Positions 17,601-49,246 of a DNA stretch of 64,000 nucleotides are shown in pieces. The notes under the pieces were generated by a model. The model saw only the letters and a list, made by a program, of their open reading frames with translations. It was not told the DNA's origin and made no database searches. A program made the position numbers and the translations under genes. Source of the stretch: Planctomycetota bacterium (GTDB lineage Bacteria > Planctomycetota > Phycisphaerae > Phycisphaerales > Phycisphaeraceae); the NCBI GenBank assembly GCA_016350165.1, contig CP066225.1:992001-1056000 (forward strand), in the 5' to 3' direction. The first letter of the stretch is position 1, and the number at the start of each line of letters is the position of its first letter.

Positions 17601-18610
17601 ACGGTGAAGATAAAGGGAGCCGTCAGAGACAGATTATTCACCGACAACAGACTGCCGTCGCCGGTGACTGTACTTGAACTGGAACTTTGAGTGGAGCTGG
17701 AACCTCGGATTAAAAAGCGGTCTGCCGATACTTGTGCACCACTCTGAATGGCGATGCCACCATCATTGCCATCACCAGCACCGACAGATAGATCCCCGCT
17801 GAGGGTTAACGTTGCATTCTCTTTAACAATGAGGCTTCCATCGCTGCTGCCATTGTCCCATACGAGCACGTCGTTACCAGTCAATGATGTGCCATTACCG
17901 GTTATCGTCAACGTATTGCCTCTAGCCCATGCGCGGCCTGATGTGTTGTCCAATGTAACAACCGCGCCGGCTTGAAGGGTGATATCGCCGCCAAAGGCAT
18001 GCAACGCTATGTCATTCGTGTTGGTCAGATTGACATGGGCGCCATCCAGGATGACCGTGCCGCTTGCTGATGTAAGGGTATCAAAGGTTGAGGAGGTAAA
18101 TTCGTCACCACCGCTGAGGGTGAGGGTGCCGGTACCGGTCTTCTCAAAGGTAGAATTACCGTTGATCGTGCCTGAAACTTTAAGTTCGGCGTTCTCACTA
18201 ATAGACCAGTTGCTGAGGGTGCTTCCCAGATTGATGTTATTAAAGATGCGGTGTGTAGCCGTTCCCGTGACAATGATGTCGCCGGTAATGAGCGTAAGGG
18301 TGTCGGAGCTTATCGTATCAGATAGGGAATAATTGGTGGTGCCACCAAAGTTCAGTTCTTGGATTGTGCGGCTGCCATTAAGCTCGACAAATGTATGGGA
18401 GGCAGGACCGCTGAAAACGACGATGTCGTCGCTGTCAGGCACACCGCTGGAGGTGCTCCAGTTGCCGGATGTGCTCCACAGCGAGTTCTCACTGCCATCC
18501 CATGTGAAGGTAGCAGCTGAAGCGGGAGACGCAGTAAAATTGGCCGTATTAATAGCAATTAATGCCATAGCGGCAGGCAGCAAAGATGCTGTTCGAACAG
18601 GAGTTTTCAT
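2612..18610 (-). CDS. Giant autotransporter A, beta-strand repeat passenger with C-terminal beta-barrel
   Basis: About 5,332 aa. ATG 18610 is preceded by GGAGGT at the right distance; an upstream in-frame TTG at 18628 would lie on that site. A Sec signal peptide (MKTPVRTASLLPAAMALIAI, then TASPASA) is followed by the WDGSENSLW motif usual at the start of these passengers. The body is made of autotransporter-associated beta-strand repeats of the form GTLTLSGTNTYSGGTT, expected to fold as a long beta-helix. A passenger-end module with APGNSIGTL occurs near residue 3,460 and another (SPGNSIGT) near 4,795. A helical linker precedes the barrel (about residues 5,054-5,332), which starts GLWGAWANGFG and ends in Phe, as outer-membrane proteins do. 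It is probably exported by Sec and displayed on the surface; adhesion is the usual inferred role. The leader is B/D-type, not C/E-type. No terminator was recognised downstream. Confidence 0.93.
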   Translation of the reverse strand: MKTPVRTASLLPAAMALIAINTANFTASPASAATFTWDGSENSLWSTSGNWSTSSGVPDSDDIVVFSGPASHTFVELNGSRTIQELNFGGTTNYSLSDTISSDTLTLITGDIIVTGTATHRIFNNINLGSTLSNWSISENAELKVSGTINGNSTFEKTGTGTLTLSGGDEFTSSTFDTLTSASGTVILDGAHVNLTNTNDIALHAFGGDITLQAGAVVTLDNTSGRAWARGNTLTITGNGTSLTGNDVLVWDNGSSDGSLIVKENATLTLSGDLSVGAGDGNDGGIAIQSGAQVSADRFLIRGSSSTQSSSSSTVTGDGSLLSVNNLSLTAPFIFTVEDGGTVDVANLLLITGSDNNITVNGGTLEIGQISGATDFSISGDDALIIGTNDSDSSIDGAIEDAAGGAGALVKNGTGTLTLSGDNTYSGGTTISAGTVIASGGNAIGDSGTVTIADVDGAILQLNNDETIGALAGGGTTGGLVNLGDNTLTVTDDSDTTFAGVITGTGDAFSASSRLVKQGSGTFTLTGGTDGDPSTIYSLFSEEGTITLDGARLDLTSNEYNSVNPALSASGGDVILQNGADVQFTGGTANIGLVTGSTLTVTSGASLTGNAIEVRQSALRDGRIIVEDSATLDLNTLFIGSSTNSGELTVQSGGKVSGNFVYLKEYGTGWVTGSGSELDANILDLNGTGTLTVKDSGAVEVSNYIKMTSGSSLTITDDGTFQTKYLYGSGTISISGSDALTVGIDNATDEYTFSGVIQDASDGAGAFTKEGTSILTLTGNNTYTGGTTISGGTLQIGSGGMTGSIQGDILNNATLEFNRSDALTYTGMISGTGELTQNGTGILMLTGTNTYSGGTTISSGTLIAYGGNAIGDSGTVTIADVLDATLQLNTDETIGALAGGGSTGGEVRLQSNTLTVGDANSTTFDGVITGTGNLIKQGSGILTLTGTNTYSGDTTISAGTLQIGDGGTTGSIQGDILNNATLAFNRSDDLTYAGVISESSGSSGALIKAGAGTLTLTGTNTFTGGTTISGGTLQIGDYDPTDGSGGTTGSIQGDIVNSGTLAFNRSDDITYADVISGTGSLVKNGSGTLTLSGTNTYTGDTTISDGTIYIDGTDQAFGGADANGDYGTVTFTGDATIDTSSDGIDVYNNIEIGSHDVIFKRLSNPPAGATLNFHGDISGDEDSLLVLDADLDGYLRIIDLKGDNSSFAGDITASGTVGIYNDNVLGTGTLTNMSGKYLRLYARNSVVLENNMVVTDYGGPYNQLQLVLENDMTLNGVISGTGRLSTWPGYSGTLTLNGANTYEGGTQLNAGRIVVVGNDSAFGTGSVTVNGAVDLSAGLNATTGLSSFTLANAFILNGDLTISGDNDLTLDDVIDGTGALIKEGSGTLTLNGVNTYSGGTTLSAGGITVGDDDALGTSSLTVSGASELSAGISSVVLDNTVTLNDTLTVIGDNDLTFTNVISGTGALANTGDGILTLTGGTDANPTSFDSLISNGGSVILDGANINLTGTDVDAQSALSAYFGDITLQNGSVVELDDASGNVWVNDTLTVTDSGSELSTNALTVYVMGSLNIDDGSVVEVAGETVLSNTLNITGNDNSISIDGGTLRTDKLSTESSRSLPIISISGDDALVVGINNGSSAFDGKIQDVAGEPGTLTKEGSGTFYLAGANTYTGGTIINGGTLQLGSAGDNLGLKGSIQGNVVNNATFAFYRNNDLTFAGVISGTGQVIKKGSGTLTLSGVNTYSGGTTLTEGGITVGSVTALGDGTLTVSGASVLSAGASSITLDNAITLNAGLTISGDNDLTLTKVISDGTSSGALAKTGAGTLILSGTNTYTGGTTLSAGGLTVGDDDALGDGSLTVGGASELSAGASSVTLGNAVTLNDDLTISGTNDLTLDGVISDGASIGSLTKTGSGTLTLTGTNTYTGGTTLSGGTVDISGNSNAFGSVDGNGDYGTVTVTGDATIQSYRTNFQGETYLSNDIVIDPTATLTVYNYNYELFSKGEISGEGNLVLDAYDGDAGILYYIRMYEDNSGFTGDVTASGQIEIHADNVFGTGTITAKEPLNLESIADITLGNDISINIESDYGLKLDIYGDMTLDGVISGSSLLRVADFSDGTLTLNGMNTYGGGTTILSGDTVVVVGNDSAFGTGSVTVDSTLDLSAGVSSVTLGNAVILNDDLTISGDNNLTFTDVISGTGALIKEGNGALTLTGTNTYSGGTTISAGTLQIGDGGTTGSILGDVLNNGTLAFNRSDDLIYTGVISESSGSSGSFVKAGDGTLTLTGTNTYSGLTTIMGGTLQIGNGGTTGSIQGSILNNATLAFNRSDDLTYSNLILGIGNLVKEGAGTLTLSGTNTYSGGTTLSGGTVIAGSDSAFGDSGGLVSVTANTSLESDDDTRTLGNDFEIDLGSTLTVDGLFDLWLTGDIDGEGGLTKEGDSTLVLSGNNTYTSATLVSGGILQVMGDDALGNGELTILGSAELIVADIVTVLGNDIVIDLGQTFTVGELGDMTLSGDISGDGSLLKVGDGTLTLSGDSTYHGGTNLSAGGIAVGSDTALGDGTLTVSGASALGTGASSVTLGNAITLDDDLTITGDNDLTLTDVISGTGALAKTGDGTLTLSGDNTYSGGTTISAGTVIASGGNAIGDSGTVTIADVDGAILQLNNDETIGALAGGGTTGGRVDLGGNILTVIDDSDTTFAGVITGTDDPFIGYPRLVKQGSGTFTLTGGTDDDPSTFSSLFSEEGTVILDGARLDLTSYAYGLDKPALFAHGGDIIIQNDADVQFTSGTLNVGFVTGSTLTVTSGASLTVHTIDVRQRLDISDPSLLDTTGRLIVEDSATLDFNILFIGTNNEGELTVQSGGKVSGNSVYLKEYGTGWVTGSGSELDANVLEFDRTGSLTVKDSGAVEVSNVTTMTSNSSLTITDDGTFQTKYLYGSGTISISGSDALTVGIDNATDEYTFSGVIQDASDGAGAFTKEGTSILTLTGNNTYTGGTTISGGTLQIGNGGTTGSIQGDILNNGTLAFNRSDDLIYTGVISESSGSSGSFVKAGAGTLTLTGINTYSGGTTLSGGAVIAGSDSAFGDSGGLVSVTANTSLESDDDARTLGNDFTIDLGSTLTVDGLFDLWLTGDIDGEGGLTKEGDSTLTLSGNNTYTGATLVSGGILQVMGDDALGNGELTILGSAELIVADIVTVLGNNIVIDLGQTFTVGEVGDMTLAGDINGDGSLLKVGDGTLTLSGDSTYHGGTNLSAGGIEVGSDTALGDGTLTVSGASALSAGASSITLVNAFTLNDDLTISGDNDLTLDDVIDGTGALIKEDAGTLTMNGVNTYSGGTTLSAGGITVGNDDAISTGSLTVNGVSELSAGASSVTLANAVTLSDTLTISGDNDLTLTNVISGTGALAKTGSGAFVLSGDSSAYTGPTTISGGTLAVNNALGGAVTVNGGTLAGTGTLSDAVTVASGGTIAPGNSIGTLYTGDLAVAGTVEIEIDAAGNSDLIDVTGTVDISGATLDLQPFGSLGSLAILTTHTIIENDGVDAVTGMFTSGTGLDTQGDFFSAVDTVGGDGNDVTLDVYRTSITLTDGVDISESITFPTNFGDFTFTVAGSDSATFSGSFSQTNTPLGVIKDGTGTLTFTGANTYTGGTTLLGGTVIAGNDNAFGSSDGVISVAANTSLESDDDGRTLGYNFDINSGSTLTVDGAFDLLLTGDIDGEGGLTKAGDGTLTLGGDNTYSGGTNINAGTVVASGGSAISDSGTVTIADVDGATLQLNADETIGSLAGGGSTGGEVNLQSYTMTVGDVNDTTFEGVILGTGGLVKEGSGTLTLSGDNTYSGDTNISGGTIIVSGGSAISDSGTVTIADVLGATLQLNANETIGSLAGGGSMGGEVNLQNYTLTVGDANDTAFEGVISGAGGLVKEDVGTLALTGTNTYSGGTTLSGGTVIAGNDSAFGGGLVTVTSNTSLESDRDDRMLGNDFTIDLNSTLTVDGLFGLLLTGDIDGEGGLTKEGDGTLTLSGNNTYTGATLVSGGILQVMGDDALGNGTLTILGSAELIVADIVTDLGNDIAIDPGQTFTVGELGDMTLSGVISGDGSLLKVGSGTLTLSGINTYSGGTTLSGGGLTVGDDDALGDGSLTVDGASELSADISSVTIDNAVTLNDELTVTGDNDLTLDGAIGGTGGLVKEDDGTLTLTGTNTYSGGTTLSGGTVIAGSNIAFGDSEGLVSVTANTSLESDHDDRMLGNDFTIGLNSTLTVDGLFDLLLTGDIDGEGGLTKIGDGTLTLSGNNTYTGATLVSGGILQVMNDDALGDGTLTILGSAELIVDDIVTDLGNDIAIDPGQTFTVGEFGDMTLSGVISGDGSLLKVGSGTLTLSGANDYHGGTTLTAGGIEVSSDTALGDGTLTVSGDSALGAGTSSITLGNAITLDDDLTISGDNDLTLGGAIDGAGALVKAGDGTLTLKGANTYSGDTTILTGTVIVSGGNAINNSGAVTLANVLGATLQLNANETIGSLTGGGSTGGEVKLQSYTLTVGDEYDTEFAGVISGTGGLVKEGSGTLTLSGTNTYSGGFNINAGTVIASGGNAIGDIGTVTLADVSGATLQLNADETIGSLAGGGEVNLLSYTLTVGDVNDTTFDGVISGTGGLVKQGDGALALSGTNTYSGGTNIEAGTIVVDGGNAIGDTGTVTITDGATLQLDADETVGSLAGGGSTGGEVKLQSYTLTVGDANDTTFDGVISGTGGLVKQGDGTLILSNSDNIYTGGTTVNEGILIINGNMASANMNVANGAMLAGVMSLAGNYNNAGTISPGNSIGTVTVAGNLTLTDTSIYDMEIESTAGAGVGNDLIDVGGTADVDGTLNIISISGYTPNGGDTFTILEADGGVSGEFSTILENFGAYDVKAIYDANDITIQLVAVPFTDVVTPPHLTSVADAFARIADNSPTGDIVDVITQLQGLTDAQLIAAFEQMVPNYLVPQAQATFKGIDVQNNNFNGRLNELRYGLPKLWSNNMQVQTPEDATAQESADPEVAINFAMQAQETLEQQQETERLSGTQKETRVAEKDTNVTEKGLWGAWANGFGTFGDFDSQESQAGYEFNTGGVTFGFDYRVLDTLAAGAFLGYSNTGVTVDNGFGTSSFSSINTGMYMTWFNDEGFYASGLFGGGVNFYENNRRIRFGAIDRVAESDPTGFYLQTLATGGYEFKKGNWGIGPQLALQWVNLQIGSHSETGADDMNLDVGAFNGNSFVTRLGFRATYEYDTSAMLFVPELVGSWEHEYLDPIDTVNVGVPASGESFSYAGIGTGRDSGLIGVNLIGISHEAPVSFSVQYNVEFTPDDYIVNNVYAGVRISF
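9630..9875 (-). repeat. 246-bp perfect repeat inside gene A, copy 1
   Basis: Identical to 16236-16481 (offset 6,606). It encodes the end of one repeat block (TISISGSDALTVGIDNATDE, GVIQDASDGAGAFTKEG). Similarity continues, with substitutions, for roughly another kilobase on the high-coordinate side, so a module of about 1.2 kb was duplicated within the gene and then diverged, or was partly homogenised. Confidence 0.85.
16236..16481 (-). repeat. 246-bp perfect repeat inside gene A, copy 2
   Basis: Partner of 9630-9875. The neighbouring blocks on both sides (EEGT..LDGARLDLTS upstream in the protein) are also related between the two sites, showing a block duplication and not a chance match. Confidence 0.85.
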
Positions 18611-18620
18611 CTGCTTATTA

Positions 18621-18626
18621 ACCTCC
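18621..18626 (-). promoter_or_regulatory. Ribosome-binding site of gene A
   Basis: GGAGGT on the minus strand, with 10 bases between it and ATG 18610. It decides the start: the alternative TTG at 18628 would overlap the Shine-Dalgarno and add six residues ahead of a good signal peptide. Confidence 0.75.
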
Positions 18627-18677
18627 AAAACAAGCGATTACACCGGGCAGGATCGGATGCATTCGATTGAATGAGAT

Positions 18678-19328
18678 TCAAGTATTTTTTGGTAAAGCTT
18701 TTTGAAACCCCCGAATAACCCATCTGATTTGCATCAATCTGTGTGCGTCGCTGTAATAACAGTCACGATTCGCAAACCGCTGCCTGAGAAATGCATGAAG
18801 AACACAGATGGAACGACGCAACAAGCAATTAGGACTAATGAATGGGATGATGCCCGCACTGAGATCAACCGCACCGTTGATGCCGAGTGATCCATTTGCA
18901 GCGTTGAATTCCAATGTGCCTGACGCACCAGCAATATCCACGCTCACATCAGCATTCGATGTTTTGCTGTTCGTGATAGACGCATTGGGATTAAACGTGA
19001 GTGAGCCAGTGCCTTGTAGGTCATAGGTACTGTCTACGCCGGTACTGAGAAATTCCAAGCCGTTGATATTGGTGTAGGCTGTGTCAAGACCCGTAATGGG
19101 AATCGCGGGATCGCCGCCTGTATCGAAACCGGACTGAACGAAGATGCTACCGTCGACATCAGCTGTTGGTGCTGTGCTATTTATCCAGTTCGCGCTATCC
19201 TGCCAACTGTTGTTGTTTTGCGTATCAAAAAATGTAACATCAGCGCCAATAGTACTACTGCTCAACAACAAACCGACCGCGCCAAGGCTCATGCCTATAC
19301 GACTGATAGTGATCATTCCGTTGATCAT
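18678..19328 (-). pseudogene. A': truncated 5' end of a C/E-type autotransporter gene
   Basis: The start (MINGM, then SRIGMSLGAVGLLLSSSTIG) and the first about 110 residues match gene C almost perfectly; after that the relic follows the E-type sequence (LQGTGSLTFN, ITNSKTSNADVSV, DLSAG). Homology stops at about 18853. The remaining roughly 58 codons encode unrelated sequence up to a stop at 18678, so the passenger and barrel are missing. If translated it would give a short secreted peptide of about 216 aa. An in-frame GTG at 19409 is possible, but it lacks a ribosome-binding site and would put extra residues before the signal peptide. It lies directly upstream of gene A on the same strand and looks like the original front end of an autotransporter that gene A's B/D-type leader has replaced. 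Confidence 0.8.
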
Positions 19329-19992
19329 GACACTTATTCCATTATTAAAGACTGCAACCACATTGAAATAAGAAACCAACACACAGATACCGGCAGCAAA
19401 CTGATGCACTAAAGAACTGAAAGAACAAAATCCTGCCGAATGTTAAACCCGACACAACAAGTAATATTAAGACAAAAGATATGGAAATACCTGTAGCAAG
19501 CACATCATGTCCTGTATCTATCTACAGGCGATAATGTACATGCCAAATCTTCATCATGTTACGCAGAAACCCTTGTAAATTTAGCACCTGTGCAACCACA
19601 TAAGATCACACAACACGAATTTGAAATCAGCTTGTTTGTCTTTCCTGACCCAACACCAATAAGTAAATATCAATCCAATCAGTACGATAACCGTTATCGT
19701 CTGTAAGCTTTACCGGCTATACCATCGCCTTCTATGCTACCTACATTTACTTTCTCACCTAACCGACACAATGGCACACATAGGTTTGTGTGCTGACGAA
19801 TGTCTCCATCAAAAATGGACAGACTAATCTGCTCTACTTGCGTGTAGGTTTGCTTAGGCACCGCAGCAAGGAAAGCCTAGCCCCTCGATAGAGATTTAGC
19901 GGTGTTTGACCGTGTCTCCAGCAGTGCCTACGCGACTGGTGAAGAAGTACGATGGGAATGAGGATGTGAAGGGCCGAAGGAGGAGCCCCAAA

Positions 19993-20034
19993 CAATTAAA
20001 TTAGTTAATCAATTGGGATTAACTAATTTAATTG
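19993..20034. promoter_or_regulatory. Perfect 18-bp palindrome in the divergent spacer, copy 1
   Basis: Arms 19993-20010 (CAATTAAATTAGTTAATC) and 20017-20034 are exact reverse complements around the 6-base loop AATTGG. There is no T-tract on either strand, so it is not a standard terminator. Its place between two divergent surface-protein genes makes an operator for a dimeric regulator, or an RNA hairpin in a leader, the likeliest readings. The regulator is unknown. Confidence 0.6.
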
Positions 20035-20336
20035 AAGCAGTTTTAAATATAAGCAAAATATCACAAACTACTCACATCATAAGTACTGTAAAAATCCAGT
20101 TGTATGTTTTTTTGGTAAGAGTATGTTTCTTTAGATGTGCAAGTCATGCAAAAATTTAGAGCTGCTTCATATAACGGATTAAAACTTTTGATTTTATTTT
20201 CATTTGTGGTAAATATCATGTCCTGATTTTTAGCTCGAATACGTATTGTTATGCGGAGCTTGGGCAAACTCAGTGCGTCTCATTGAAAGATAGAGCGCAT
20301 CTGAATTTATTGCATGCAACGGCATGCTTCTATTCA

Positions 20337-20345
20337 AAGGAGAGG
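20337..20345 (+). promoter_or_regulatory. Ribosome-binding site of gene B
   Basis: AAGGAGAGG, seven bases before ATG 20353. It selects this start over the in-frame ATG at 20314, which would add 13 basic residues (QRHASIQRRGR) ahead of a normal signal peptide. The same site precedes gene D at 44209-44217. Confidence 0.75.
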
Positions 20346-20352
20346 AAGAAAG

Positions 20353-23300
20353 ATGAAAGCACCCCTTCAAACGAGTTCATTGCTACCTGCAGCAATGGCG
20401 TTGATCACCATCGGTACAGTCGGCTTCACCGCGAGTCCCGCATCGGCGACTATTTGCGCATGGGACGGTAGTGAAAACAGCCTGTGGGGAACGGAAAACA
20501 ACTGGAAATATGTCAATGCTTCTAATGTACTCGTCGATGGTATTGTGCCTGATAGCAATGACATCGTCACTTTCAACGACTTGCAAAGCCCTCAAACGAC
20601 ATACGTCGAGCTTGATGGCAGCCGCGTCGTTGATGAATTATGGTTTGAGGGCGCTACTGGTTACACCCTTACGGATTCGACCAGTCTTGACACCCTGACC
20701 ATCAGCAGTGGCAACATCACCACGATCGGTTCAGCCACACATCATATCTGGAATACGATCAATTTGGGTGGCGAAGGTACATGGAACATTGGTGAGGAAA
20801 GTGCACTCAGGGTCTACAGCACTATCAACTTCAACCACAAATTAACCAAAACAGGTACCGGCACACTCACATTCACAGGCGGCAACGTTGATGATCCGTC
20901 AAGTGTTGACAGCCTTGTATCTTCAGAAGGTCATCTGATCCTAGATGGTGCCTACATAAACGTTACGTTTGGCAATCCGTTTCCAGCGACAGGGGGAGTT
21001 AAGGCAAATGGCGGCGACATTACACTAAAGAATGGGACGCAGGTCGCCATGAATCAATTCGGCGGAGTCAAGAATGGGACACTGATTCTTACCGGCAACG
21101 GCACGAAACTGTCGGGGAGGGGCCTCGATGTGGCTGAAAGTAACAACAGCACCGGCAGTGTTGTGGTGAAAGATGGTGCTAAGCTAGACATTAGTAGCCT
21201 CATGTATATTGCGTACGCTGGTGATGCCGATTTGACTGTGCAAAACGGTGGAACCGTTTCGACAGGGATCGTTACGGCTGGCGTCCTTGAATCTGCAAGT
21301 GGCAGCATTTTGGTAGATGGTAACAATAGCACGTTAACTGCAGGCGGCATGAATTTAGGTGGGCAAACATCGGCGCAATCTAAGGGTACAGGCACATTGA
21401 CCGTGCAGAATGGCGGCAAAGTTACAAGCGAAGATATCACACATGTATGGTCGACCACCAGCAACATCACTCTCGACGGCGGTACATTCGAGACCAACCG
21501 GCTTTTTGGTAAAGGGACAATTAACATCTCCGGTGGTGACAACGCCTTGACCGTCGGCATCAATAACGGGAGTTCCACCTTTGATGGTCTTTTTAAAGAT
21601 ATAAGTGATCCGATTCACGATGTAGGCTATGAATTTGGCAGGATTACTAAAGCCGGTACCGGCACGTTCACCCTCACAGGTGGCACCGATGACGATCCTT
21701 CAGAGATCGGTATCCTTTCATCAGAAGATGGTGAGGTTATTCTGGATGGTGCTCATGTTAACCTCAAAAGTATTTATTCCAATACCAAATCGGCATTGTA
21801 TGCCAACGGCGGCAACGTTACGCTCCAGAACGGTGCGGATGTAGAGTTGCATCCACTCAGTGGTTATGCATGGGTTCAAGACGGCGCATTGAGCATCACT
21901 GGCGAAGGTAGCCAATTATCTGCCTATACGACGTATCTGCACAATAACGGTTCACTCGTTGTAGATGCTGGTGGCGCATTGCAAACCGCTCGGCTCACCG
22001 GCAACGGCACGGTCAATATCTCCGGCGACGATGCGTTGACCGTTGGCCTCTATAACAACAGCTCCACCTTCCACGGCACGATTACCGGCACGGGCACGCT
22101 GACCAAGACCGGCAGTGGCGTCTTCGCCCTCACCGGCGGTAGCGCCAACAATCCTTCAAACTTCGGCTACCTCAGTTCTGAAGGCGGCTCGGTCACCCTC
22201 GATGGCGCCAATGTCAACCTGACCGGGTCATCGTATTCTCTCACCCTCGACGGCGGTAATGTCACCCTCAGAGGCGGCTCAGGTGTTCAGTTGTCGAGTA
22301 CGCAGATTACGGACGGCGCGTTGACAATTACCGGCAGTGGCACGTCAATGAATGGCACGAGCCTGGTTTTATTGGATGAAAACGGCAGCCTCGTCGTCGA
22401 GGATCAGGCGGCCTTGGACCTCACGGGTGGCCTGCAGATCGGCCTCATCGGCACTGGCAATCTGGCGGTGCAAAGCGGCGCAGCAGTCTCGGCGGATAAT
22501 GTGAACATCGCCGGATCAGACGCGGGTCTGGTGACCGGTAGCGGCAGCAAGCTGTCGGCCAATTGGCTGCATATAAGTACATACGACGGCAATAGCCGCA
22601 TACTCACCGTGAGCGATGGCGCTACAGTTGAGGTCGCAGATACAACCTATTTGTCATACGACGGCATCGCCCTGAACATCGATAGCGGCACGCTTAAGAC
22701 GGATAAGCTGAACTCCGACCTTAACACCTTGAAGCAGCCAACGATCAATCTCTCCGGCAACAGTGAGCTGATCGTCGGCATCAACAACGGCGACTCAATC
22801 TACAAGGGCGTGATCCAGGATGATGCAAGTGGTTTGAGCACGTTCACCAAAACCGGTACCGGCACATTTACGCTCTCCGGCGACTATATCGATGCCCCCT
22901 CAAGCATCGGCCGCCTCGTTGCCACAGACGGCACCGTCATTCTGGATGAGGTTCACGTCAACCTGACCGGCACCGCCTTCGATGCACAATCTGCCCTCTC
23001 CGCTGACGGCGGCGACATCACCCTCCAGAACGGCGCGGTTGTTCAGCTCAATAACACATCTGGTGCAGCGTGGGTCAACGGCAGTGCTGTGACTGTCACA
23101 GGTAACGGTACCTCGCTAAATGCTGGTCTTGGCATGACCGTGCAAAACAACAACGGTAATACTGGCAGTCTCATTGTGAAAGACGGAGCCGCATTAGATC
23201 TCACTTATCTGAGCATCGGCGACGATGAATCTGGTGAGATGACTGTTGAAAGCGGCGCAACAGTGTCGGTTGACTACGCGACCTTCACCAATTCCAGCAC

Positions 23301-24237
23301 AGGTTCGGTTACTGGCAGTCAATTGTCAGCTAAGGAACTGACGCTACGCGATGCCAGTGCACTGACCGTGAACAATGGCAGTACTGTTGAAATCGCAGAT
23401 GTGACGAATGTATGGTCCTCCGCAGACAACAGCCTCACTATTGATGACAGCACACTACGAACCAATCGCCTTAACGGTAGCGGAACGGTAAGTATCTCCG
23501 GCAATGATGCCCTGACCGTCGGCATCAACAACGGCAGTTCCACCTTCTATGGTCAAATTCAAGATGCTGCAGGCGGTGCGGGCAGTCTTACTAAAACAGG
23601 CTCGGGCACTTTCACCCTTACCGGCAACAACACCTACACCGGCAACACTTTTGTCACCGACGGCACGTTGCTGGCGAGCAACACAACAGGCTCGGCAACC
23701 GGCAGCGGAGAGGTCGCTGTATTTGATGGCGGCACACTCGGCGGTAACGGCATGATTGCTAGCAAGGTCTTCATTAATGATGGCGGCACGCTCGCTCCCG
23801 GTGAGTCGGCAGGCCATCTGACGGTGAATGATGTTGTATTCGGCATGGGTTCAACTTTTGAAGTCGAACTCGGCGGATTGGAAGCCAGCACCGAATACGA
23901 CGTCTTGTCGGTACTCGGCTATGCCATACTTGACAACGGGCCATTGCTGGAAGTTTCGCTGATTGACGGGTTCGAACTCGACTTCGGTCAGCATTTCGAG
24001 ATCGTTAATGTTGGCGATAGACTGATTGGCGGGTTTAATAGTCTGGTCGAAGGCGCACGCGTGAGCAGTTTCAATGACATTGATTTGTTCATCACGTATC
24101 AAGCTGGTGATGGCAACGACATCGCACTATATACCACCGCGATTCCCGAACCCGCTTCCTTCGTGCTGCTTGGACTTGGGGGGCTCACTTTTATTCTTCG
24201 AGAAAAACGTTGTACTCCCGAAAGGCGTTCCGCTTAA
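20353..24237 (+). CDS. PEP-CTERM surface protein B with beta-strand repeats
   Basis: About 1,294 aa. The signal peptide MKAPLQTSSLLPAAMALITI ends TASPASA and is followed by WDGSENSLW, as in gene A. The body has several blocks of roughly 200 residues, each with LILDGA/VILDGAHVNL, GGDITLQNGA, DALTVGINNGSSTF and GTGTFTLTGG motifs, so it is the same repeat scaffold as the autotransporters without a barrel. Near the end lie TLGGNGMIASKVFINDGGTL and APGESAGHL (passenger-end module). The last about 31 residues are a PEP-CTERM signal: IPEPASF, a hydrophobic helix VLLGLGGLTFIL and a basic tail REKR. Such proteins are cut and anchored or released by an exosortase, which is not in the window. A terminator follows at 24274. 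From codon about 1,113 onward it is identical to gene D. Confidence 0.92.
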   Translation: MKAPLQTSSLLPAAMALITIGTVGFTASPASATICAWDGSENSLWGTENNWKYVNASNVLVDGIVPDSNDIVTFNDLQSPQTTYVELDGSRVVDELWFEGATGYTLTDSTSLDTLTISSGNITTIGSATHHIWNTINLGGEGTWNIGEESALRVYSTINFNHKLTKTGTGTLTFTGGNVDDPSSVDSLVSSEGHLILDGAYINVTFGNPFPATGGVKANGGDITLKNGTQVAMNQFGGVKNGTLILTGNGTKLSGRGLDVAESNNSTGSVVVKDGAKLDISSLMYIAYAGDADLTVQNGGTVSTGIVTAGVLESASGSILVDGNNSTLTAGGMNLGGQTSAQSKGTGTLTVQNGGKVTSEDITHVWSTTSNITLDGGTFETNRLFGKGTINISGGDNALTVGINNGSSTFDGLFKDISDPIHDVGYEFGRITKAGTGTFTLTGGTDDDPSEIGILSSEDGEVILDGAHVNLKSIYSNTKSALYANGGNVTLQNGADVELHPLSGYAWVQDGALSITGEGSQLSAYTTYLHNNGSLVVDAGGALQTARLTGNGTVNISGDDALTVGLYNNSSTFHGTITGTGTLTKTGSGVFALTGGSANNPSNFGYLSSEGGSVTLDGANVNLTGSSYSLTLDGGNVTLRGGSGVQLSSTQITDGALTITGSGTSMNGTSLVLLDENGSLVVEDQAALDLTGGLQIGLIGTGNLAVQSGAAVSADNVNIAGSDAGLVTGSGSKLSANWLHISTYDGNSRILTVSDGATVEVADTTYLSYDGIALNIDSGTLKTDKLNSDLNTLKQPTINLSGNSELIVGINNGDSIYKGVIQDDASGLSTFTKTGTGTFTLSGDYIDAPSSIGRLVATDGTVILDEVHVNLTGTAFDAQSALSADGGDITLQNGAVVQLNNTSGAAWVNGSAVTVTGNGTSLNAGLGMTVQNNNGNTGSLIVKDGAALDLTYLSIGDDESGEMTVESGATVSVDYATFTNSSTGSVTGSQLSAKELTLRDASALTVNNGSTVEIADVTNVWSSADNSLTIDDSTLRTNRLNGSGTVSISGNDALTVGINNGSSTFYGQIQDAAGGAGSLTKTGSGTFTLTGNNTYTGNTFVTDGTLLASNTTGSATGSGEVAVFDGGTLGGNGMIASKVFINDGGTLAPGESAGHLTVNDVVFGMGSTFEVELGGLEASTEYDVLSVLGYAILDNGPLLEVSLIDGFELDFGQHFEIVNVGDRLIGGFNSLVEGARVSSFNDIDLFITYQAGDGNDIALYTTAIPEPASFVLLGLGGLTFILREKRCTPERRSA

Positions 24238-24273
24238 CACAGGCTGCAACACTGAATCAAAATTGAAACACAT

Positions 24274-24307
24274 GGCCGTCTTGAAAAACAAGGCGGCCTT
24301 TCTTGTT
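24274..24307 (+). terminator. Rho-independent terminator of gene B
   Basis: Stem GGCCGTCTTG / CAAGGCGGCC (one G-T wobble) around an A5 loop, followed by TTTCTTGTT. It starts 36 bases after the B stop codon. Confidence 0.8.
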
Positions 24308-24354
24308 GAACCAACCAAGTGAAGGATATAGATTCAGTCAAACGAAGAATGTTT

Positions 24355-24745
24355 CATAGCTGCTGGTCAAGAAAAGAAGATACTCCAATGTTTTGACCTG
24401 CTGTTTGCTCGGTACAAAAATGATCCAGGAGATTCAAATACCTCAGGTTGTAAATGTATATTAGAGTTGACGCTGCCTCAATATTCAACCGTACCTAGCA
24501 ATGTACCCATACCCATTTTTATAGCCATCTAAGAGTTGCTTTGCGGGAGCAAAAACTGGCATGTCTAAGTATTCAATATTTATAAGAGGCTTCAAAAATA
24601 CGATAGATCACAACTTTTCTGTTTAACCTGCTAATAGCCAATTGTTGTACAAACTCGCATCAATAACACAATACACACCAGCTCTCGTAAGTATTTCAAA
24701 AAATTGCTCTGCTGACTTTTGCGTAGAACAATTAGAGCCACCTCG
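24355..24745 (-). pseudogene. DUF488-family gene relic, copy 1
   Basis: In one minus frame the sequence reads TQKSAEQFFEILTRAGV, CVIDASLYNNWLLAG, stop, a second stop, FLKPLINIEYLDMPV and FAPAKQLLDGYKNG, then a third stop. This follows DUF488 proteins: the KSAEEFF start, V-D-V-R..N..S.LAGF, NIEY.H.P.LAPTKELLDGY. Towards 24355 a shifted frame gives LLDHFCTEQTAGQN, resembling the C-terminal LLCSE.....CHR segment. At least three stops and one frameshift kill it, and the functional Arg residues after IDV are lost. DUF488 has no settled function. Identical damage occurs in the copy at 48380-48770. Confidence 0.6.
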
Positions 24746-25123
24746 GTAGCAGATGCAAAGGCAAGCATGCCACGGTGCTGCCGGAGAGATACCGCTGTTT
24801 GGCATTTTGAATGCATTGAATTGGGGTTTTACTAAGATAATCTCAAACGCTCAAGCCAAGACGCTGGTACTGATCATGTAAAGCAATACCAACCCGACAG
24901 CATTGTCTGCACTGTTGATCTTAATAGTCTCTTTATTTATGTAATAACTTTGCAGCAAGATGAAATACACTAAACTAATCTAGAATCACAGCTTTATCGA
25001 ATCTCTAATAGTACTAGTAATATCCATGTATCAATTTTCGTCAACTCACAGTATCCATGTTTAATAATGATTCTGTTTGCGGCTTCACATGAGCTACGAC
25101 TTGCTTATTATTACAATTAAAGA

Positions 25124-25181
25124 TTTGAGGTTCCCCCCACGTATAATGGTGGCTCCGGGCGAGAAGGGGAGGAACCTCAAA
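25124..25181. repeat. Long hairpin between convergent genes B and C, copy 1
   Basis: Perfect 11-bp arms TTTGAGGTTCC (25124-25134) and GGAACCTCAAA (25171-25181), extended inward by C4/G4 runs across one mismatch, around a loop of about 26 bases. It lies about 40 bases downstream of the C stop on the minus strand. There is no T-tract, so it may be a bidirectional terminator, an RNA-stabilising stem or the remains of an inverted-repeat element. Copy 2 is at 49149-49206. Confidence 0.6.
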
Positions 25182-25221
25182 CTGTCAGCAAGTACGCAAT
25201 CGATTGACGCTCAGAAGAAAG

Positions 25222-28200
25222 TTAGAAGCTGATCCTAACACCTGCATAGATGTTGCTCACGATAAAGTCATCCGGCGTAAACTCGGTGTTATACTGAACC
25301 GTAAAACTGATCGGTGCCTTGTGGCTGATGCCGATCAGGTTCACGCCGATCAGCCCCGAGTCACGGCCAGTGCCGATACCTGTGTAACTAAACGACTCAC
25401 CACCTGCCGGCATACCCACGTTAACTGTATCAATCGGATCAAGGTATTCATGTTCCCACGAACCAACCAGTTCCGGCACAAACAGCATCTCTGAGGTGTC
25501 ATACTCATACGTCGCTCTAAAACCAAGCCGGGTCACAAACGAGTTACCGTTGAACGCACCCACATCAAGGTTCAGGTCTTCTGCACCCGTTTCACTGTGT
25601 GAACCGATCTGCAGGTTCACCCACTGCAACGCCAGCTGCGGACCGATACCCCAATTGCCTTTCTTGAACTCGTAACCACCGGTCGCAAGCGTCTGCAGGT
25701 AAAAACCGGTTGGGTCCGACTCCGCTACGCGATCAATCGCACCAAAACGAATACGCCTGTTGTTTTCATAGAAGTTAACGCCGCCGCCAAACAGCCCTGA
25801 GGCATAAAAACCATCCTCGTTAAACCACGTCATGTACATGCCCGTGTTAATGCTGTTGAACGAGCTGGTGCCCAGGCCATTGTCCACCGTGATCCCGGTG
25901 TTTGAATAACCTAAAAAGGCGCCTGCTGCTAGCGTATCCAAAACCCTGTAGTCAAAGCCCAGGGTCACACCACCGGTGTTGAATTCAAAACCCGCCTGGC
26001 TTTCCTGTGAATCAAAATCGCCGAACGTGCCAAAACCATTTACCCATGCGCCCCAGACATCCTTACCAGTACCACTAAAGCGATTGGTCTCCTGCTGCTG
26101 CTCAAGCGTCTGCTGAGTTTGCATTGCTAAACCGATTGCAACCTCGGGATCGGCGGATTCTTCAGCAGTGGATGCTTGTGGTGTCTGAACTTGCAGGTTA
26201 TTAGACCACAACTGCGGCAGACCGTAACGCAATTCGTTGAGCCGGCCGTTGAAGTTGTTGTTCTGCACGTCGATGCCTTTGAACGTCGCTTGAGCCTGCG
26301 GAACAAGATAGTGCGGCACCAACTGATCGAATGCGGCAACCAACTGTGCATCCGTGAGTGTTTGCAGCTGGCTAATCACTGTCGCGATATCGCCTGTTGG
26401 ATTGCTATCTGCAATTTGCGCAAAGGCTGCGGCCGCAGAGGCAAGGCGAGGATCCGTCACAACCTCTGTAAATGAAACTCCAATCAGTTCAATCATAATG
26501 TCGTTGGCGTTGTAAATAGCTTTGACATTAAATGAACCTAAGTTCTCGAAGATCGAACTGAAGGTGCCGCTCACACCACCATCGGATTCGAGGATCGTGA
26601 AGGTGTCGCCGTCGGTTGGCGTGTAACCTGGCAACCCAATAACGTTCAGCGTGCCATCAACATCGGCTGTGCCATCTACATCAATCAGGTCGTTGCCGAC
26701 GCCTGCACCTGCGGTCGATTCGATCTCCATGTCGTACACGCTGGTGCCGGTCAGTGTCAGGTTGCCGCCAATCGCCATGGTTCCCGGACTATTGCCCGGT
26801 GACATCCTGCCGGAGTTGTTGTAGTTACCGGCTAAACTCATCGCACCACTGAGCATCGCGCCGTTGGCCACATTTATGTTGGCGCTGGCCATGTTGCCAT
26901 TAACGATCAAGATGCCCTCATTAACCGTTGTGTCACCGGTGTAGGTATTGTCGTTGTGGCTTAGAACCAGTGTGCCACTGCCTTCTTTAATGAAGTCGCC
27001 AGTCCCTGATATCACACCGGCATAAGTTGCATCATTCTCGTCGCCGACCGTCAGCGTGTTACTCTGCAGGCTGACCTCGCCGCCTGTAGAGCCGCCACCG
27101 ACCAGTGAGCCGATCGTCTCATCCGCATCCAGTAGCAACGTTGCACCATCAACATCAGCGAGTGTCACGGTGCCGCTGTCAATAATCGCATTACCACCAC
27201 TAGCAACGACAGTACCTTCATTAATATCGGTACCACCACTATAGGTATTTTGACCAGTAAGTGTCAGCGTACTAATGCCTTCTTTGGTTAAGCCACTCGT
27301 ACCGCTAATCACACCATCAAGGGTCAGGTCATTGTCGCCGGTAATCGTTAAGTCATTATTCAACGTCACAGCATTACCAAGCGTGACGCTGCTAATCCCT
27401 GTACTTAACTCTGATACGCCTGACACGGTTAATAAGCCATCGCCGATTGCATTATCGCTACTGACCGCAATACCACCGGCTGAAAGCGTCGTGCCACCAC
27501 TGTAGGTGTTGGTGCCGCTAAGCGTCAGTGTGCCAACGCCTTCTTTGATTAATCCACTCGTACCGCTAATCACACCATCAAGGGTCAAGTCATTGTCGCC
27601 GGTAATCGTTAAGTCGTCATTCAACGTCACAGCGTTACCAAGCGTAACACTGCTGATACCGGCACTTAACTCTGATACGCCTGACACGGTTAATGTACCG
27701 GAGCCAATCGCATCGTCGCTACCGATCGTAATACCACCAGATGAAAGCGTCGTACCGCCGCTGTACGTGTTGTCATTGGTAAGCGTCAGCGTGGAATCAC
27801 CGTTTTTGGTGAAACCGCCATCGCCTGAGATCACACCGTCAAGCGTCAGGTCATTATCGCCTTCAAATGTCAGGGTGATTTGATCGTCGATGCTGATATC
27901 GTTCGCAATCATACGTTCATCAGCAGACGACTGAAGGATCGAATCGCCGACGACTTGCACATCGCCTGAACTAAAGGCAGTATCGCTGGAAAGCATAACG
28001 GTTACGCCGTCCAATGTGGTGTTGCCTGCAAATGTGTTGTTGCCACTGAGTGTCACAAAAATGTTGGGTGACACGGTCAGATCCCCATCGCCAACAATAT
28101 TGCCAGAAATCTCAAAGTCGAATTCACCGAACAGGTCTAAGGTTATGCCATCAGCAATGGTGAAGTTATTGGTCATATTGATATCGTCGGTCGAAACGGA

Positions 28201-31200
28201 CAACTCAAAATCGCCGGTCACGTCCACATCGCCGGTGCCTAGGGCACTGCTATGGCCGATGACAACGCCGCCACTCTGGAAAGTGGTGCCTCCCTCATAA
28301 GTGTTAACGCCGTTGAGGGTGAGGGTGCCATCTGTATCGATTTCCAGACCGCCGAGGCCACTGAGAACACCGTCGAGTGCAAGGTCATTGTCGCCGGAGA
28401 CGGTTAGGGCGATTTGATCGTCGATGCTGATATTGTTGCCAACAGTACGCTCGTCAGCGGACGACTGAAGATTCGCATTGCCTGTAACACTCACGCTACC
28501 CTCGCCGAGTGCATCGTCATGACCGAGCACGACATCGCCATCTGCAAGCGTGAAACCGCCGGCAAATGTATTGTCGCCGCTTAACGTTAGTGTACCGCTG
28601 CCTTCTTTGGTTAACGCGCCTGTGCTGCCAATCGTACCGTCGAGTGTCAGATCATTGTCGCCAGTAACGGTTAAATCACCACTTAGAGTGATCGCGTTAT
28701 CAATCGTAATGCCGTCGGAGCCAGCCTGTAATATTTTTGGTGCAATGTTCGATACCACCGTCAGCGTGCCACTGCCAAATGCATTATCGTGTCCTACCGT
28801 GAGTGTACCAATACTAAGCGTTGTACCCCCGCTATATGTATTGTCACCATTCAGCACTAGCACGTCATTGTTAGTACCCGTTTCTCGAACTAGCGCGCCC
28901 TCGCCACTAATCACACCGTTAAATGTTGTGTCTATACCAGTATTAACAACCCAGTTTGCATTCAATACCATATCGTTATCAAACGTTTCAGTACCGCTAG
29001 AGTAGAAGTATGAAGTGTCATTGATTGTTATTGTGCCGGTACCGAGCGCGCCTGTGGTGGCGGAGACGAGTGTGGCACCATTCAGAGTAATCCCGCCGGA
29101 GAAACTGTGAGTATTTGAACCCAGATAAACGCTCCCACTATTGATGGTAATACCGCCACCACCACCACTACCATCGTCAGTGATCGTACCACGGAAGTCT
29201 ATACTGCCTTCGATCGTCATGACGGAATTACCCAAATCAATATCATTATCAATTTGTGGGCCGTAATGATGTACTGGGCCTACAGTTTCCCCGCTTTGAA
29301 GTGTCGCATCACCGGTAAAATTCACGGTGCCAGTGCCAAGCCGATTGTAATTAAGGCCACTATCTGGCACGCCCTTAAGTACGATAGTGCCGCCAGCAAT
29401 CGTCGTGTCGCCGCTATAAATATTAACGCCGTTCAACGTCAACGTGCCGCTATCATTTTTCACTAATCCACTCGTACCGCTAATCACACCATCAAGGGTC
29501 AAGTCATTGTCGCCGGTAATCGTTAAGTCGTCATTCAACGTCACAGCGTTACCAAGCGTAACACTGCTGATACCGGCACTTAACTCTGATACGCCTGACA
29601 CGGTTAATGTACCGGAGCCAATCGCATCGTCGCTACCGATCGTAATACCACCAGATGAAAGCGTCGTACCGCCGCTGTACGTGTTGTCATTGGTAAGCGT
29701 CAGCGTGGAATCACCGTTTTTGGTGAAACCGCCATCGCCTGAGATCACACCGTCAAGCGTCAGGTCATTATCGCCTTCAAATGTCAGGGTGATTTGATCG
29801 TCGATGCTGATATCGTTCGCAATCATACGTTCATCAGCAGACGACTGAAGGATCGAATCGCCGACGACTTGCACATCGCCTGAACTAAAGGCAGTATCGC
29901 TGGAAAGCATAACGGTTACGCCGTCCAATGTGGTGTTGCCTGCAAATGTGTTGTTGCCACTGAGTGTCACAAAAATGTTGGGTGACACGGTCAGATCCCC
30001 ATCGCCAACAATATTGCCAGAAATCTCAAAGTCGAATTCACCGAACAGGTCTAAGGTTATGCCATCAGCAATGGTGAAGTTATTGGTCATATTGATATCG
30101 TCGGTCGAAACGGACAACTCAAAATCGCCGGTCACGTCCACATCGCCGGTGCCTAGGGCACTGCTATGGCCGATGACAACGCCGCCACTCTGGAAAGTGG
30201 TGCCTCCCTCATAAGTGTTAACGCCGTTGAGGGTGAGGGTGCCATCTGTATCGATTTCCAGACCGCCGAGGCCACTGAGAACACCGTCGAGTGCAAGGTC
30301 ATTGTCGCCGGAGACGGTTAGGGTATCGTTCAAGGTAAAAGTGTTCGCAAGCGTCACGCTGCTGATGCCAGCAGTTAATCCTGATGCGCCTGCTACTGTG
30401 ACAGAGCCGGTGCCGAACGCGTCGTCACTGTTGACTGTGGTCACGCCGCCATTCAGCGTCGTGCCGCCGGTAAACGTATTGGCACCGCCGAGCGTCAACG
30501 TACCGGTTCCTGTTATCGCCAATGAACCCGTGCCTGAGATCACACCATCAAAGATCGTATCGCCACCAATCGTGAGCGTGTTGTCTTGAAGATTGACTTC
30601 ACCGCCTGTGGAACCGCCGCCGGTCAGCCCGCCGATTGTCTCATCTGCATTGAGTTGCAACATTGCGCCGGCAACGTCGGCAATGGTCACGATTCCGGTG
30701 TCGCCGATCGCGTTACCACCCGAAGCGATGATCGTGCCAGCATTAATATTAGTGCCACCACTGTAGGTGTTGGTGCCGCTGAGCGTTAATGTGCCGCTGT
30801 CTTCTTTTATTAATCCACTCGTGCCGCTAATCACACCATCAAGTGTCAGATCATTAGAACCGATAGCGATCAAGTCACCATTCAATGTGACATCATTATC
30901 AATGGTAATACCGCTACTACCAGCGCTTAATGATGTTGTAAAAGCTGGATGTATTGACTCTGCCACGGTTAATGCGCCGGTGCCGAGTGCGTTATGGCTG
31001 CCGACCTGGATGACACCGACGTTAAGCGTCGTACCGCCGCTGTATGTATTGTTACCGTTCAGTATCAGCACATAATCGCTAGCTGTCTCATCTATTGTTA
31101 ATGCGCCCGTACCACTAATCACGCCGTTTACTGTTGAACCTTTATTGGGATCCATCATGAGATCCGCATTCAATACGACATCGTTATCAAACGTGAGATA

Positions 31201-34200
31201 ATCAACTTCAAACTCGAGTTCCGACTCGCCTGCAATCGTCAGCACACCAGAGCCGAGAGCATTGTCGTCGCGGATGGCGAGTACACCACTGTTCACAGTC
31301 ACACCGCCGGTGAATGTGTTACTGCCGCCCAGATAGAGCTTCCCTGGCCCGTCGTGGACAATACTGCCGCCATCACCGGAAATATCACCAGAGAAATTCA
31401 GATCGCACTCAACAGTGGTCGTGGTCATGACATGATCATTCAGATTAATATCATTATCAATCCAAACGTTGGCCCAATTGCTCGGATTTGTTCCTCCTTG
31501 AATTCCTGCATCACCGGTAAAGATCACGGTGCCGGTACCAAGTCGGTGGTAGTTTATACCGGAACTATTGACGCCAAGGAGTTCGATTGTGCCGCCAGCA
31601 ATCGTTGTATCACCGCTGTAAGTGTTGTAGCCGTTCAGCACAAGCGTGCCGTCGCCCTCTTTCACTAATCCGCTCGTGCCGCTGATATTACCGTCAAAGG
31701 TCAAATCGTTATCGCCGGATACGGTTAGGGTATCGTTCAAGGTAAAGGTGTTCGCAAGCGTGACGCTGCTGAGGCCAGCAGTTAATCCTGATGCGCCTGC
31801 TACTGTGACAGAGCCGGTGCCAAACGCGTCGTCGCTGTTGACTGTGGTCACGCCGCCATTCAGCGTAGTGCCGCCAGTAAACGTATTGGCACCGCCGAGT
31901 GCCAGCGTGCCGGTTCCTGTTATCGCCAATGAACCCGTGCCTGAAATCACACCATCAAATGTCGTATCGTCATCGCCGCCAATCGTGAGCGTGTTGTCTT
32001 GAAGATTGACTTCACCGCCTGTAGAACCACCGCCGGTCAGCCCGCCGATCGTCTCGTTTGCATTGAGTTGCAACATTGCACCGGCAACATCAGCAATAAC
32101 CACGAGGCTACTATCACCAATCGCGTTACCACCTTCAGCGATGATTGCGCCAGCATCAATATTGGTACCGCCGCTGTATGTGTTGGTTCCGGTCAGCGTT
32201 AACGTGTGATCCCCATCTGTTTTATTTAATCCGCTCACGCCACTAATATCACCGCCGAGTGTCAGATCATTGGAACCAATAACCTGCAATTCAGTTTCCA
32301 ATACGATGTCATTCGCAATCGCAACACCATCGACGCCAGCACGTAATGATGCTGTTGCAGGAGGATCAGTTGGCAAACCTGATATCGGTGTTGTGTCCAC
32401 CGTGAGCGTGCCGGTGCCGAGTGCATTATCGTGGCTAACTTGGAGTATGCCCGTATCAAACGTCGTACCACCGGTATACGAGTTGTCACCACTTAGCGTC
32501 AGCGTGACGTCATTACTACTATCTTGTGTTAAGGCGCCATCGCCACTAATCACACCCGTCAAGTTCATATACGAGGAATAGTAATCAAGCTCTAAATCCG
32601 CATTCAATACGATATCGTTATCAAGCGTTAGGTTCTTAAAATAAGATGACATTCGCGAGGCACTATTAATCGTCAACACGCCGGTGCCGAGACCGGTATC
32701 AGTATAAACGTAAAGTGTACCACCGTTCATTGTCACACCGCCAGTGAATGTGTTATCAGCATCCAGGACTAGTCTCAATGGCCCGTTGTGAACAATACTG
32801 CCGCCATCACCGGAGATACTACCGTAAAATCTCAAAATGGTCTCATCAGTGGAAGTAGTCAAGGTATAACTATCCAGATCAATATCATTATAAATATTAA
32901 CTACCTCCGAAGACTGCTTTTCTCCAGATCGAATTTCCGCATCACCCATCAATTCCACGGTGCCGAAGCCAAGTCTATTTCCCATCTGGCCACTATCACG
33001 TCCACCCAAGAGTACGACCGTACCACCATGAATTTCTGTGCCGCCGCTATAAAGGTTGAAACCGTTTAGATAAAGCGTGCCACCACCCTTTTTTATCAAT
33101 CTGCCGTTGCCGACGTTTGTGGTGATGTTGCCAAATTCGCTGATGACGTCGCCGTCGTCGAAGATGTTAGCGTTAAGGGTTAAATCAAGGTCGCCATCAA
33201 CCGTTAAGGTACTATCCTCACTCATGGTAAAGGCATTAGCGACCCACACGCCATCTTCGTCATCGACGCCGGAGAGTAGTGATACCGCTCCGTTCAAGGT
33301 GATTGATTCGGTGCCGAACGCGCTGTCGCTGCCGATAACGACGATGCTACCATCATTCATCGTGGTGTCGCCAGTGTACGTGTTTGCACCATTCAACGTG
33401 AGCGTGCCGCCGCCGCCGTTAATGATCAATGGACCAAAACTGCTAATCACACCGTTGAGTGTCATATCATTGTTCTGATAAAAATGTAATCCTCCGCCGT
33501 AATCGATAGCAAAATTATTATCAAGTATTGCGCCGGTGTTTTCGCGAGAGTGTACGGCTACATACGATGTCGTTGTAAGTGTGCCGGTGCCAAATGCGTT
33601 GTCACTGTAAACGTACATTTGACCTTCTGCGTTCACATCGCCAGCGAAGCCTGAGTTATCGCCGTGCAATTTTATGATAGCACTCACGGTTGAATATCTT
33701 GCATCAAGAACAAGAAGAGCCTCGTCATTACCGATGATATCGCCATACAATTCTATGGTATGACCTTTATTTTCCACAGTTACTGCATGACTATTGATAT
33801 TGATGTTGTTATTTATATAAATCTGATCTGATTTATTAGGATCATCGGTTTGAATTGTCGCATCACCCGTAAAGGTGATGGTACCGTAATCGCCGTTACC
33901 GTCGGCACCGCCGAATGCACTGCTGTTGCCAGTTATATCGATAATGCCATCAGAAATGGTCGTATCGCCGGTGTATGTGTTGGTGCCGCTGAGTGTCAGT
34001 GTGCCGCTACCCACCTTCAGCAGCTCGCCATCACCTGAGATCACACCCGACAGCGTCATGTCGCCCAGCTCACCCACCGTAAAGGTCTGGCCAGGATCAA
34101 TCGCGATGTCATTATCAAGATCGGTCACGATGTCGGCAACGATCAATTCCGCGCTGCCAAGGATGGTTAGCGTCCCGTCGCCCAGTGCATCGTCGTTCAT

Positions 34201-43200: not shown

Positions 43201-43281
43201 GACACTTATTCCATTATTAAAGACTGCAACCACATTGAAATAAGAAACCAACACACAGATACCGGCAGCAAACTGATGCAC

Positions 43282-44224
43282 TAAAGAACTGAAAGAACAA
43301 AATCCTGCCGAATGTTAAACCCGACACAACAAGTAATATTAAGACAAAAGATATGGAAATACCTGTAGCAAGCACATCATGTCCTGTATCTATCTACAGG
43401 CGATAATGTACATGCCAAATCTTCATCATGTTACGCAGAAACCCTTGTAAATTTAGCACCTGTGCAACCACATAAGATCACACAACACGAATTTGAAATC
43501 AGCTTGTTTGTCTTTCCTGACCCAACACCAATAAGTAAATATCAATCCAATCAGTACGATAACCGTTATCGTCTGTAAGCTTTACCGGCTATACCATCGC
43601 CTTCTATGCTACCTACATTTACTTTCTCACCTAACCGACACAATGGCACACATAGGTTTGTGTGCTGACGAATGTCTCCATCAAAAATGGACAGACTAAT
43701 CTGCTCTACTTGCGTGTAGGTTTGCTTAGGCACCGCAGCAAGGAAAGCCTAGCCCCTCGATAGAGATTTAGCGGTGTTTGACCGTGTCTCCAGCAGTGCC
43801 TACGCGACTGGTGAAGAAGTACGATGGGAATGAGGATGTGAAGGGCCGAAGGAGGAGCCCCAAACAATTAAATTAGTTAATCAATTGGGATTAACTAATT
43901 TAATTGAAGCAGTTTTAAATATAAGCAAAATATCACAAACTACTCACATCATAAGTACTGTAAAAATCCAGTTGTATGTTTTTTTGGTAAGAGTATGTTT
44001 CTTTAGATGTGCAAGTCATGCAAAAATTTAGAGCTGCTTCATATAACGGATTAAAACTTTTGATTTTATTTTCATTTGTGGTAAATATCATGTCCTGATT
44101 TTTAGCTCGAATACGTATTGTTATGCGGAGCTTGGGCAAACTCAGTGCGTCTCATTGAAAGATAGAGCGCATCTGAATTTATTGCATGCAACGGCATGCT
44201 TCTATTCAAAGGAGAGGAAGAAAG
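43282..44224. other. Divergent spacer between C and D, no intact gene seen
   Basis: Same sequence as 19410-20352, including the unexplained minus-strand open stretch and the palindrome. It must contain the promoters for the giant gene C (minus) and for D (plus). Confidence 0.6.
43865..43906. promoter_or_regulatory. Perfect 18-bp palindrome in the divergent spacer, copy 2
   Basis: Arms 43865-43882 and 43889-43906 with loop AATTGG, identical to 19993-20034. It lies between genes C and D. Confidence 0.6.
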
Positions 44225-48262: not shown

Positions 48263-48298
48263 CACAGGCTGCAACACTGAATCAAAATTGAAACACAT

Positions 48299-48332
48299 GG
48301 CCGTCTTGAAAAACAAGGCGGCCTTTCTTGTT
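48299..48332 (+). terminator. Rho-independent terminator of gene D
   Basis: Identical to the gene B terminator at 24274-24307: GGCCGTCTTG / CAAGGCGGCC stem, A5 loop, T-rich tail. Confidence 0.8.
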
Positions 48333-48379
48333 GAACCAACCAAGTGAAGGATATAGATTCAGTCAAACGAAGAATGTTT

Positions 48380-48770
48380 CATAGCTGCTGGTCAAGAAAA
48401 GAAGATACTCCAATGTTTTGACCTGCTGTTTGCTCGGTACAAAAATGATCCAGGAGATTCAAATACCTCAGGTTGTAAATGTATATTAGAGTTGACGCTG
48501 CCTCAATATTCAACCGTACCTAGCAATGTACCCATACCCATTTTTATAGCCATCTAAGAGTTGCTTTGCGGGAGCAAAAACTGGCATGTCTAAGTATTCA
48601 ATATTTATAAGAGGCTTCAAAAATACGATAGATCACAACTTTTCTGTTTAACCTGCTAATAGCCAATTGTTGTACAAACTCGCATCAATAACACAATACA
48701 CACCAGCTCTCGTAAGTATTTCAAAAAATTGCTCTGCTGACTTTTGCGTAGAACAATTAGAGCCACCTCG
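48380..48770 (-). pseudogene. DUF488-family gene relic, copy 2
   Basis: Same sequence as the relic at 24355-24745 with the same stops and frameshift. Shared damage shows that the gene was already dead when the block was copied or last homogenised. Confidence 0.6.
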
Positions 48771-49206: not shown

Positions 49207-49246
49207 CTGTCAGCAAGTACGCAATCGATTGACGCTCAGAAGAAAG

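Follow-up and report, generated by a model that had tools for sequence, protein, structure and literature searches.

A pseudogene-bearing tract identical in two diverged surface-protein gene pairs of a planctomycete, and its probable origin by gene conversion

The closest described systems are the babA/babB and homA/homB pairs of Helicobacter pylori, for which two reports describe concerted evolution by intragenomic gene conversion (PMC4552749, PMC2795765). According to these reports, they are outer-membrane paralogues whose 3' regions are converted (in bab also the 5' region) and whose middle is variable. We found a like arrangement in the window, by which we mean the whole 64-kb stretch of DNA that was analysed, and, as far as one genome shows, its tracts would reflect the same manner of conversion. 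Unlike bab and hom, the genes concerned here are planctomycete giant autotransporters and PEP-CTERM-type proteins, and one of the tracts carries two dead genes. The conversion process is already known elsewhere. A limited literature search found no paper on planctomycete autotransporters or on the conversion of autotransporter passengers. The story of the pseudogene is an ordinary one; more interest attaches to the exchange among the giant autotransporter genes.

Dead filler between convergent surface-protein genes

The relic is flanked by two convergent genes, a plus-strand gene and a giant minus-strand autotransporter gene. We refer to the two gene pairs, each with its relic copy, as A and B. 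Their genes are the following.

20314-24237, plus strand: plus gene A, 1307 aa, with T5SS/PEP-CTERM-associated repeats and a PATR repeat
25222-43281, minus strand: giant autotransporter P2 (pair A), ORF of 6019 aa, with PATR repeats and an autotransporter beta-domain
44186-48262, plus strand: plus gene B, 1358 aa, with the repeat families of plus gene A
49247-57637, minus strand: giant autotransporter P3 (pair B), ORF of 2796 aa, with PATR repeats and an autotransporter beta-domain

The PF03797 beta-domain was detected in P2 (E 3.3e-51, scanned as two pieces) and in P3 (E 7.6e-51). The C-terminus of plus gene A ends in what we take to be a PEP-CTERM-like signal. The stretch between the genes holds two relics and two hairpins.

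24274-24298, plus strand: terminator-like hairpin behind the plus gene, from a hairpin search
24393-24718, minus strand: DUF488 pseudogene, copy A, about residues 10-121 of about 143 in two of three alignments
24731-24912, plus strand: IS1595-type (ISXO2-like) transposase fragment, copy A, with a DNA and a protein match and one stop
25123-25182, minus strand: hairpin behind the giant gene (z -2.85)
48418-48743, minus strand: DUF488 pseudogene, copy B, identical to copy A and placed by the +24025 offset of the tract
48756-48937, plus strand: IS1595-type transposase fragment, copy B, placed by the same offset

An earlier note on this DNA had assigned the relic to DUF488 and had ascribed to it at least three stops and a frameshift. 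The assignment failed with the PF04343 profile but stood with a profile made from closer relatives. When the relic was read through with an X for each stop and scanned with hmmscan, Pfam returned nothing at E<=10 and NCBIfam likewise nothing; the relic thus stays below the PF04343 gathering cut-off of 22.2 bits, whereas the two tested of eight intact homologues score 72.7 and 74.1 bits (E 1.9e-20 and 5.4e-20). An HMM built from the eight intact homologues was searched against 12 frame translations of 168 kb of the source genome, taken to be that of Poriferisphaera heterotrophicis ZRK32. It found both relic copies at 56.8 bits (i-E 1.3e-18), and the two remaining rows had E 0.87 and 4.2. In addition, a frameshift-aware alignment of the relic with three intact DUF488 proteins scored 163-183, and 12 single-base shuffles scored 24-37 against the protein that had given 183. 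The damage is real and common to both copies, although the stops number 2-3. Frameshifts fall in the second half: the two alignments that reach it require 2 and 4, and the third ends at residue 78 and requires none. The start region and the C-terminal CHRR motif are absent. Judged by these direct comparisons, 24355-24745 and 48380-48770 each carry a dead DUF488 gene on the minus strand. Within the source genome the relic was found in these two places only; three further DNA matches to the stretch, the longest of 105 bp, take in only its last ~100 bp, at the giant-gene end.

Homologues of the relic were found elsewhere. A tblastn search of plasmids matched 109 records (best E 4e-9); among the best 10 of these 109, nine are annotated as DUF488 and one record is without annotation, with identities of 39-44%. 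When the source genome and 100 relatives were searched (101 genomes in all), intact homologues came up at 8 sites in 7 of the relatives, the best at 52% and E 1e-17. These DUF488 genes of plasmids and same-order genomes resemble the relic over 69-112 residues, at up to 52% in the genome search; both window copies are broken. The single gene that PF04343 finds in the whole source genome lies away from the relic, at 5058496-5058822 (5.06 Mb). We rejected it as the parent: its locus and the relic are 25% identical over 57 residues (E 0.23), and it gave no match better than E 5.5 to an intact relative of the relic.

The transposase fragment adjoins the DUF488 relic and had been missed by the earlier note; each of the two relics is truncated at their junction. 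The fragment matches a transposase gene of the sister genome at 76% DNA identity over 184 bp. The DNA match covers residues ~66-126 and the protein match residues ~80-124, at E 4e-13 and with one stop. Two matching transposase genes of other genomes contain the PF12762 (ISXO2-like) domain that marks IS1595-type insertion sequences, whereas the window keeps only an internal piece with a stop. The sister-genome gene lies in region 4030-6423 of the fetched sister sequence, next to what are presumably genes for a Vsr endonuclease and a cytosine methyltransferase, from their translations.

The filler is bounded by the two hairpins (24274-24298 and 25123-25182). Terminator-like sites number 3 in 24200-25260, against a mean of 0.9 in shuffles, and the hairpin region at the giant-gene end is partly common to other giant genes that have no relic. 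Rfam at gathering scores and ARAGORN returned nothing in the 64-kb window.

The earlier note had proposed that relatives be searched for the intact gene at the same place. The DUF488 gene is present in all 8 fetched neighbourhoods, yet none of the 8, from 7 genomes, matched any of five window proteins (tblastn, E<=1e-3); as a positive control, the same proteins gave 393 rows in the 490-545 kb region of the source genome. The sister genome has no DUF488 match, and its DNA matches to the filler are confined to the transposase part. It does have a giant gene whose barrel shows 81% identity, and 6 kb around the end of this nearest giant gene held neither DUF488 nor a matching transposase. An intact DUF488 precursor at the same place was thus not found in the 8 neighbourhoods or behind the sister's nearest giant gene.

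Extent and borders of the identical tracts

As the earlier note had claimed, the relic stretch 24355-24745 and its counterpart at 48380-48770 show zero differences. The identity belongs to an exact run of 2,748 bp (by blastn, 24230-25230 and 48255-49255 are 100% identical over 1001 bp), and a second exact run, of 1,316 bp, lies over 5' ends and upstream sequence.

23689-26436: tail tract, copy A, equal to 47714-50461 over 2,748 bp
47714-50461: tail tract, copy B, from the exact-run comparison
19102-20417: head tract, copy A, equal to 42974-44289 over 1,316 bp
42974-44289: head tract, copy B, from the exact-run comparison

The tail tract comprises the 3' end of the plus gene, the intergenic relics and the 3' end of the giant gene, that is, the anchoring ends of both genes together with the dead filler. 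The head tract comprises the 5' end of a giant-gene head, the divergent upstream region and the first 104 bp of the plus gene. Both tracts end abruptly, the tail tract at 23688/23689 on the left and at 26436/26437 on the right, and the sequence beside both tracts differs by ~15-60% or more per 100 bp.

Inside the tail tract, A and B show 0 differences in 984 noncoding bases and 0 in 299 fourfold sites. Outside the tracts, the plus genes agree in 52% of 945 aligned residues and differ at 125/289 fourfold sites; for the giant genes, the 300 codons adjoining the tail tract show differences at 48/128 fourfold sites. The fourfold difference of the two gene pairs is thus 38-43%. Because fourfold sites have diverged outside the tracts and none inside, the paralogous gene pairs are much older than their last exchange. 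The dead filler contributes sites that are not kept alike by protein function. The barrel-end sites of the tail tract are able to vary too, since 14/117 fourfold sites of the same barrel end are different between A and a further giant gene, D (genome 1062110 on), counted over the 735 bp that lie outside D's own exact run.

Zero differences put the 95% upper bound on divergence below 0.77% for the relic (391 bp), at 0.30% for the noncoding stretch and below 0.11% for the whole tail tract. The earlier claim of a recent last exchange agrees with these values. These bounds concern divergence and give no absolute time.

Exact runs among the family loci

We compared nine genes from two genome regions (490-545 kb and 975-1088 kb). 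Within these regions, direct comparison gave 127 exact runs of at least 60 bp, a count that describes the giant-gene family alone; further family copies lie at 606.7 kb and 3732 kb. Among the 16 runs of at least 200 bp, 8 link the two regions, which lie about half a megabase apart; some rows of the run list overlap or repeat one stretch common to three loci. In this deep-sea planctomycete, members of a giant autotransporter family thus share exact runs although some half a megabase separates their loci.

A and B are not the only partners, nor are these the only ends involved. Where A and B part, a run of 1,386 bp common to B and D spans the point, and a run of 275 bp common to A and locus C (26435-26709) begins. 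At the head, 769 bp are common to A, B and C. Further runs lie inside passengers, two of them 860 and 853 bp long and one of 194 bp that plus genes B and C have in common, so exchange is not confined to gene ends. The 853-bp run stands at window 32455-33307 and again at genome 516426-517278, in passengers of two giants that lie some half a megabase from each other. The 860-bp run is a direct repeat within the P2 passenger (window 27550-28409 and 29464-30323). Compared with one another, plus genes A, B and C share 41-65% of their amino acids and differ at 24-49% of fourfold sites, in alignments that include the similar ends.

Locus C also contains an insertion sequence (genome about 506200-507400) with a DDE_Tnp_1/DUF772 transposase of 324 aa, which led us to reject it as a member of the family of the transposase scrap. 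It interrupts a palindrome that is uninterrupted in A and B (window 19993-20034).

Probable gene conversion and its alternatives

We consider it very probable that the last exchange between A and B took place by gene conversion between already diverged paralogues, with the relic as a passenger. The identity, its sharp ends, the diverged flanks, the set of exact runs and the nature of the relics are direct observations, and a tract that is identical up to sharp limits, in older paralogues whose flanks have diverged, is what marks interlocus gene conversion. From these we infer that the event was a recent, non-reciprocal conversion. Both the DUF488 relic and the IS1595 scrap are dead filler between two convergent surface-protein genes, and homologous recombination would recently have carried a 2,748-bp copy from one of the gene pairs to the other, its paralogue at a distance of 24 kb. 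The 1,316-bp head stretch, which takes in 5' ends and their common upstream region, is identical in like manner. Exchange within the family would recur, mostly at the export and anchoring ends and in part inside passengers.

The earlier note had taken the identity of the damaged copies to date the duplication. Given the diverged flanks (125/289 and 48/128 fourfold sites), this was not borne out: the identity of the relic bears on the age of the last exchange, not on that of the duplication. Two dates that are easily confused are thereby set apart.

The two ends of the tail tract point to different donors. At the left end, A resembles C across the border and B does so only inside, which suggests from the alignment that A was the donor. 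At the right end, the exact A-C match starts at the border (26435), which suggests that A was the recipient. Both borders fall on limits of homology that were there already, and at such limits a conversion tract would be expected to end. Because of this coincidence and the conflicting signals, neither end decides the donor.

The foremost alternative is that the ~24-kb unit as a whole, with its relic, was recently duplicated in tandem and that the passenger middles were afterwards replaced from other family members. Both units have the same gene order and the same orientation, the A-C and B-D runs show piecewise replacement from other loci, and the exact runs in the middles (up to 194 bp for the plus genes of B and C, and 853 and 860 bp for the passengers of giants) would fit as well. 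However, replacements made later should be about as close to their donors as A is to B, and with plus genes A, B and C at only 41-65% amino acid identity, much of the middles would need donors that are not seen. We therefore regard this account as improbable.

Short reads that map to several places can level differences within repeats, and the polishing of long repeats could conceal a few true differences. The source genome was built, according to its report, from Illumina PE150 and Nanopore reads (PMC10945688). It is nonetheless highly improbable that distinct tails were evened out in this way, or that the assembler duplicated a repeat. The flanks of each copy are unique to it, and long reads are able to span 2.7 kb. 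A divergence of 15-30% is not expected to fall to 0 over 2.7 kb by polishing, and the pattern repeats with other partners and ends (B-D, A-C).

Selection on the stretch itself, for example for a regulatory RNA or a terminator, has a negligible chance of explaining the identity: hairpins do stand at both intergenic edges, but the identity ends within genes and takes in fourfold sites as well as the pseudogene and the transposase scrap, Rfam gives nothing at gathering scores in the window, and copy D differs at 14/117 fourfold sites in the same gene end.

Beyond gene conversion as the last exchange, the array and the sister locus (490-545 kb) might form an active diversification system in which giant passengers are shuffled between loci, a reading that we hold only tentatively and think rather unlikely. 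Frequent conversion would then keep the ends of the genes interchangeable: the signal peptides, the upstream regions, the PEP-CTERM ends and the beta-barrels. If this were true, the dead filler would serve as a neutral clock of exchange.

Two further open reading frames of the family lie to the left of pair A.

2612-18628, minus strand: giant P1, ORF of 5338 aa, with a plus-gene-like signal peptide and a barrel-type tail
18678-19409, minus strand: stub of 243 aa, a P2-type giant-gene N-terminus cut after roughly 205 residues

P1 begins behind the 243-aa stub with a signal peptide resembling those of the plus genes, its tail is 88% identical in amino acids to the P2 tail, and no relic lies behind the gene. 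From its two ends, P1 looks like a chimera of a plus-gene head and a giant-gene tail. The array is adjoined by a gene for a 1112-aa protein (59484-62822, plus strand) with a protein kinase domain and WD40 repeats.
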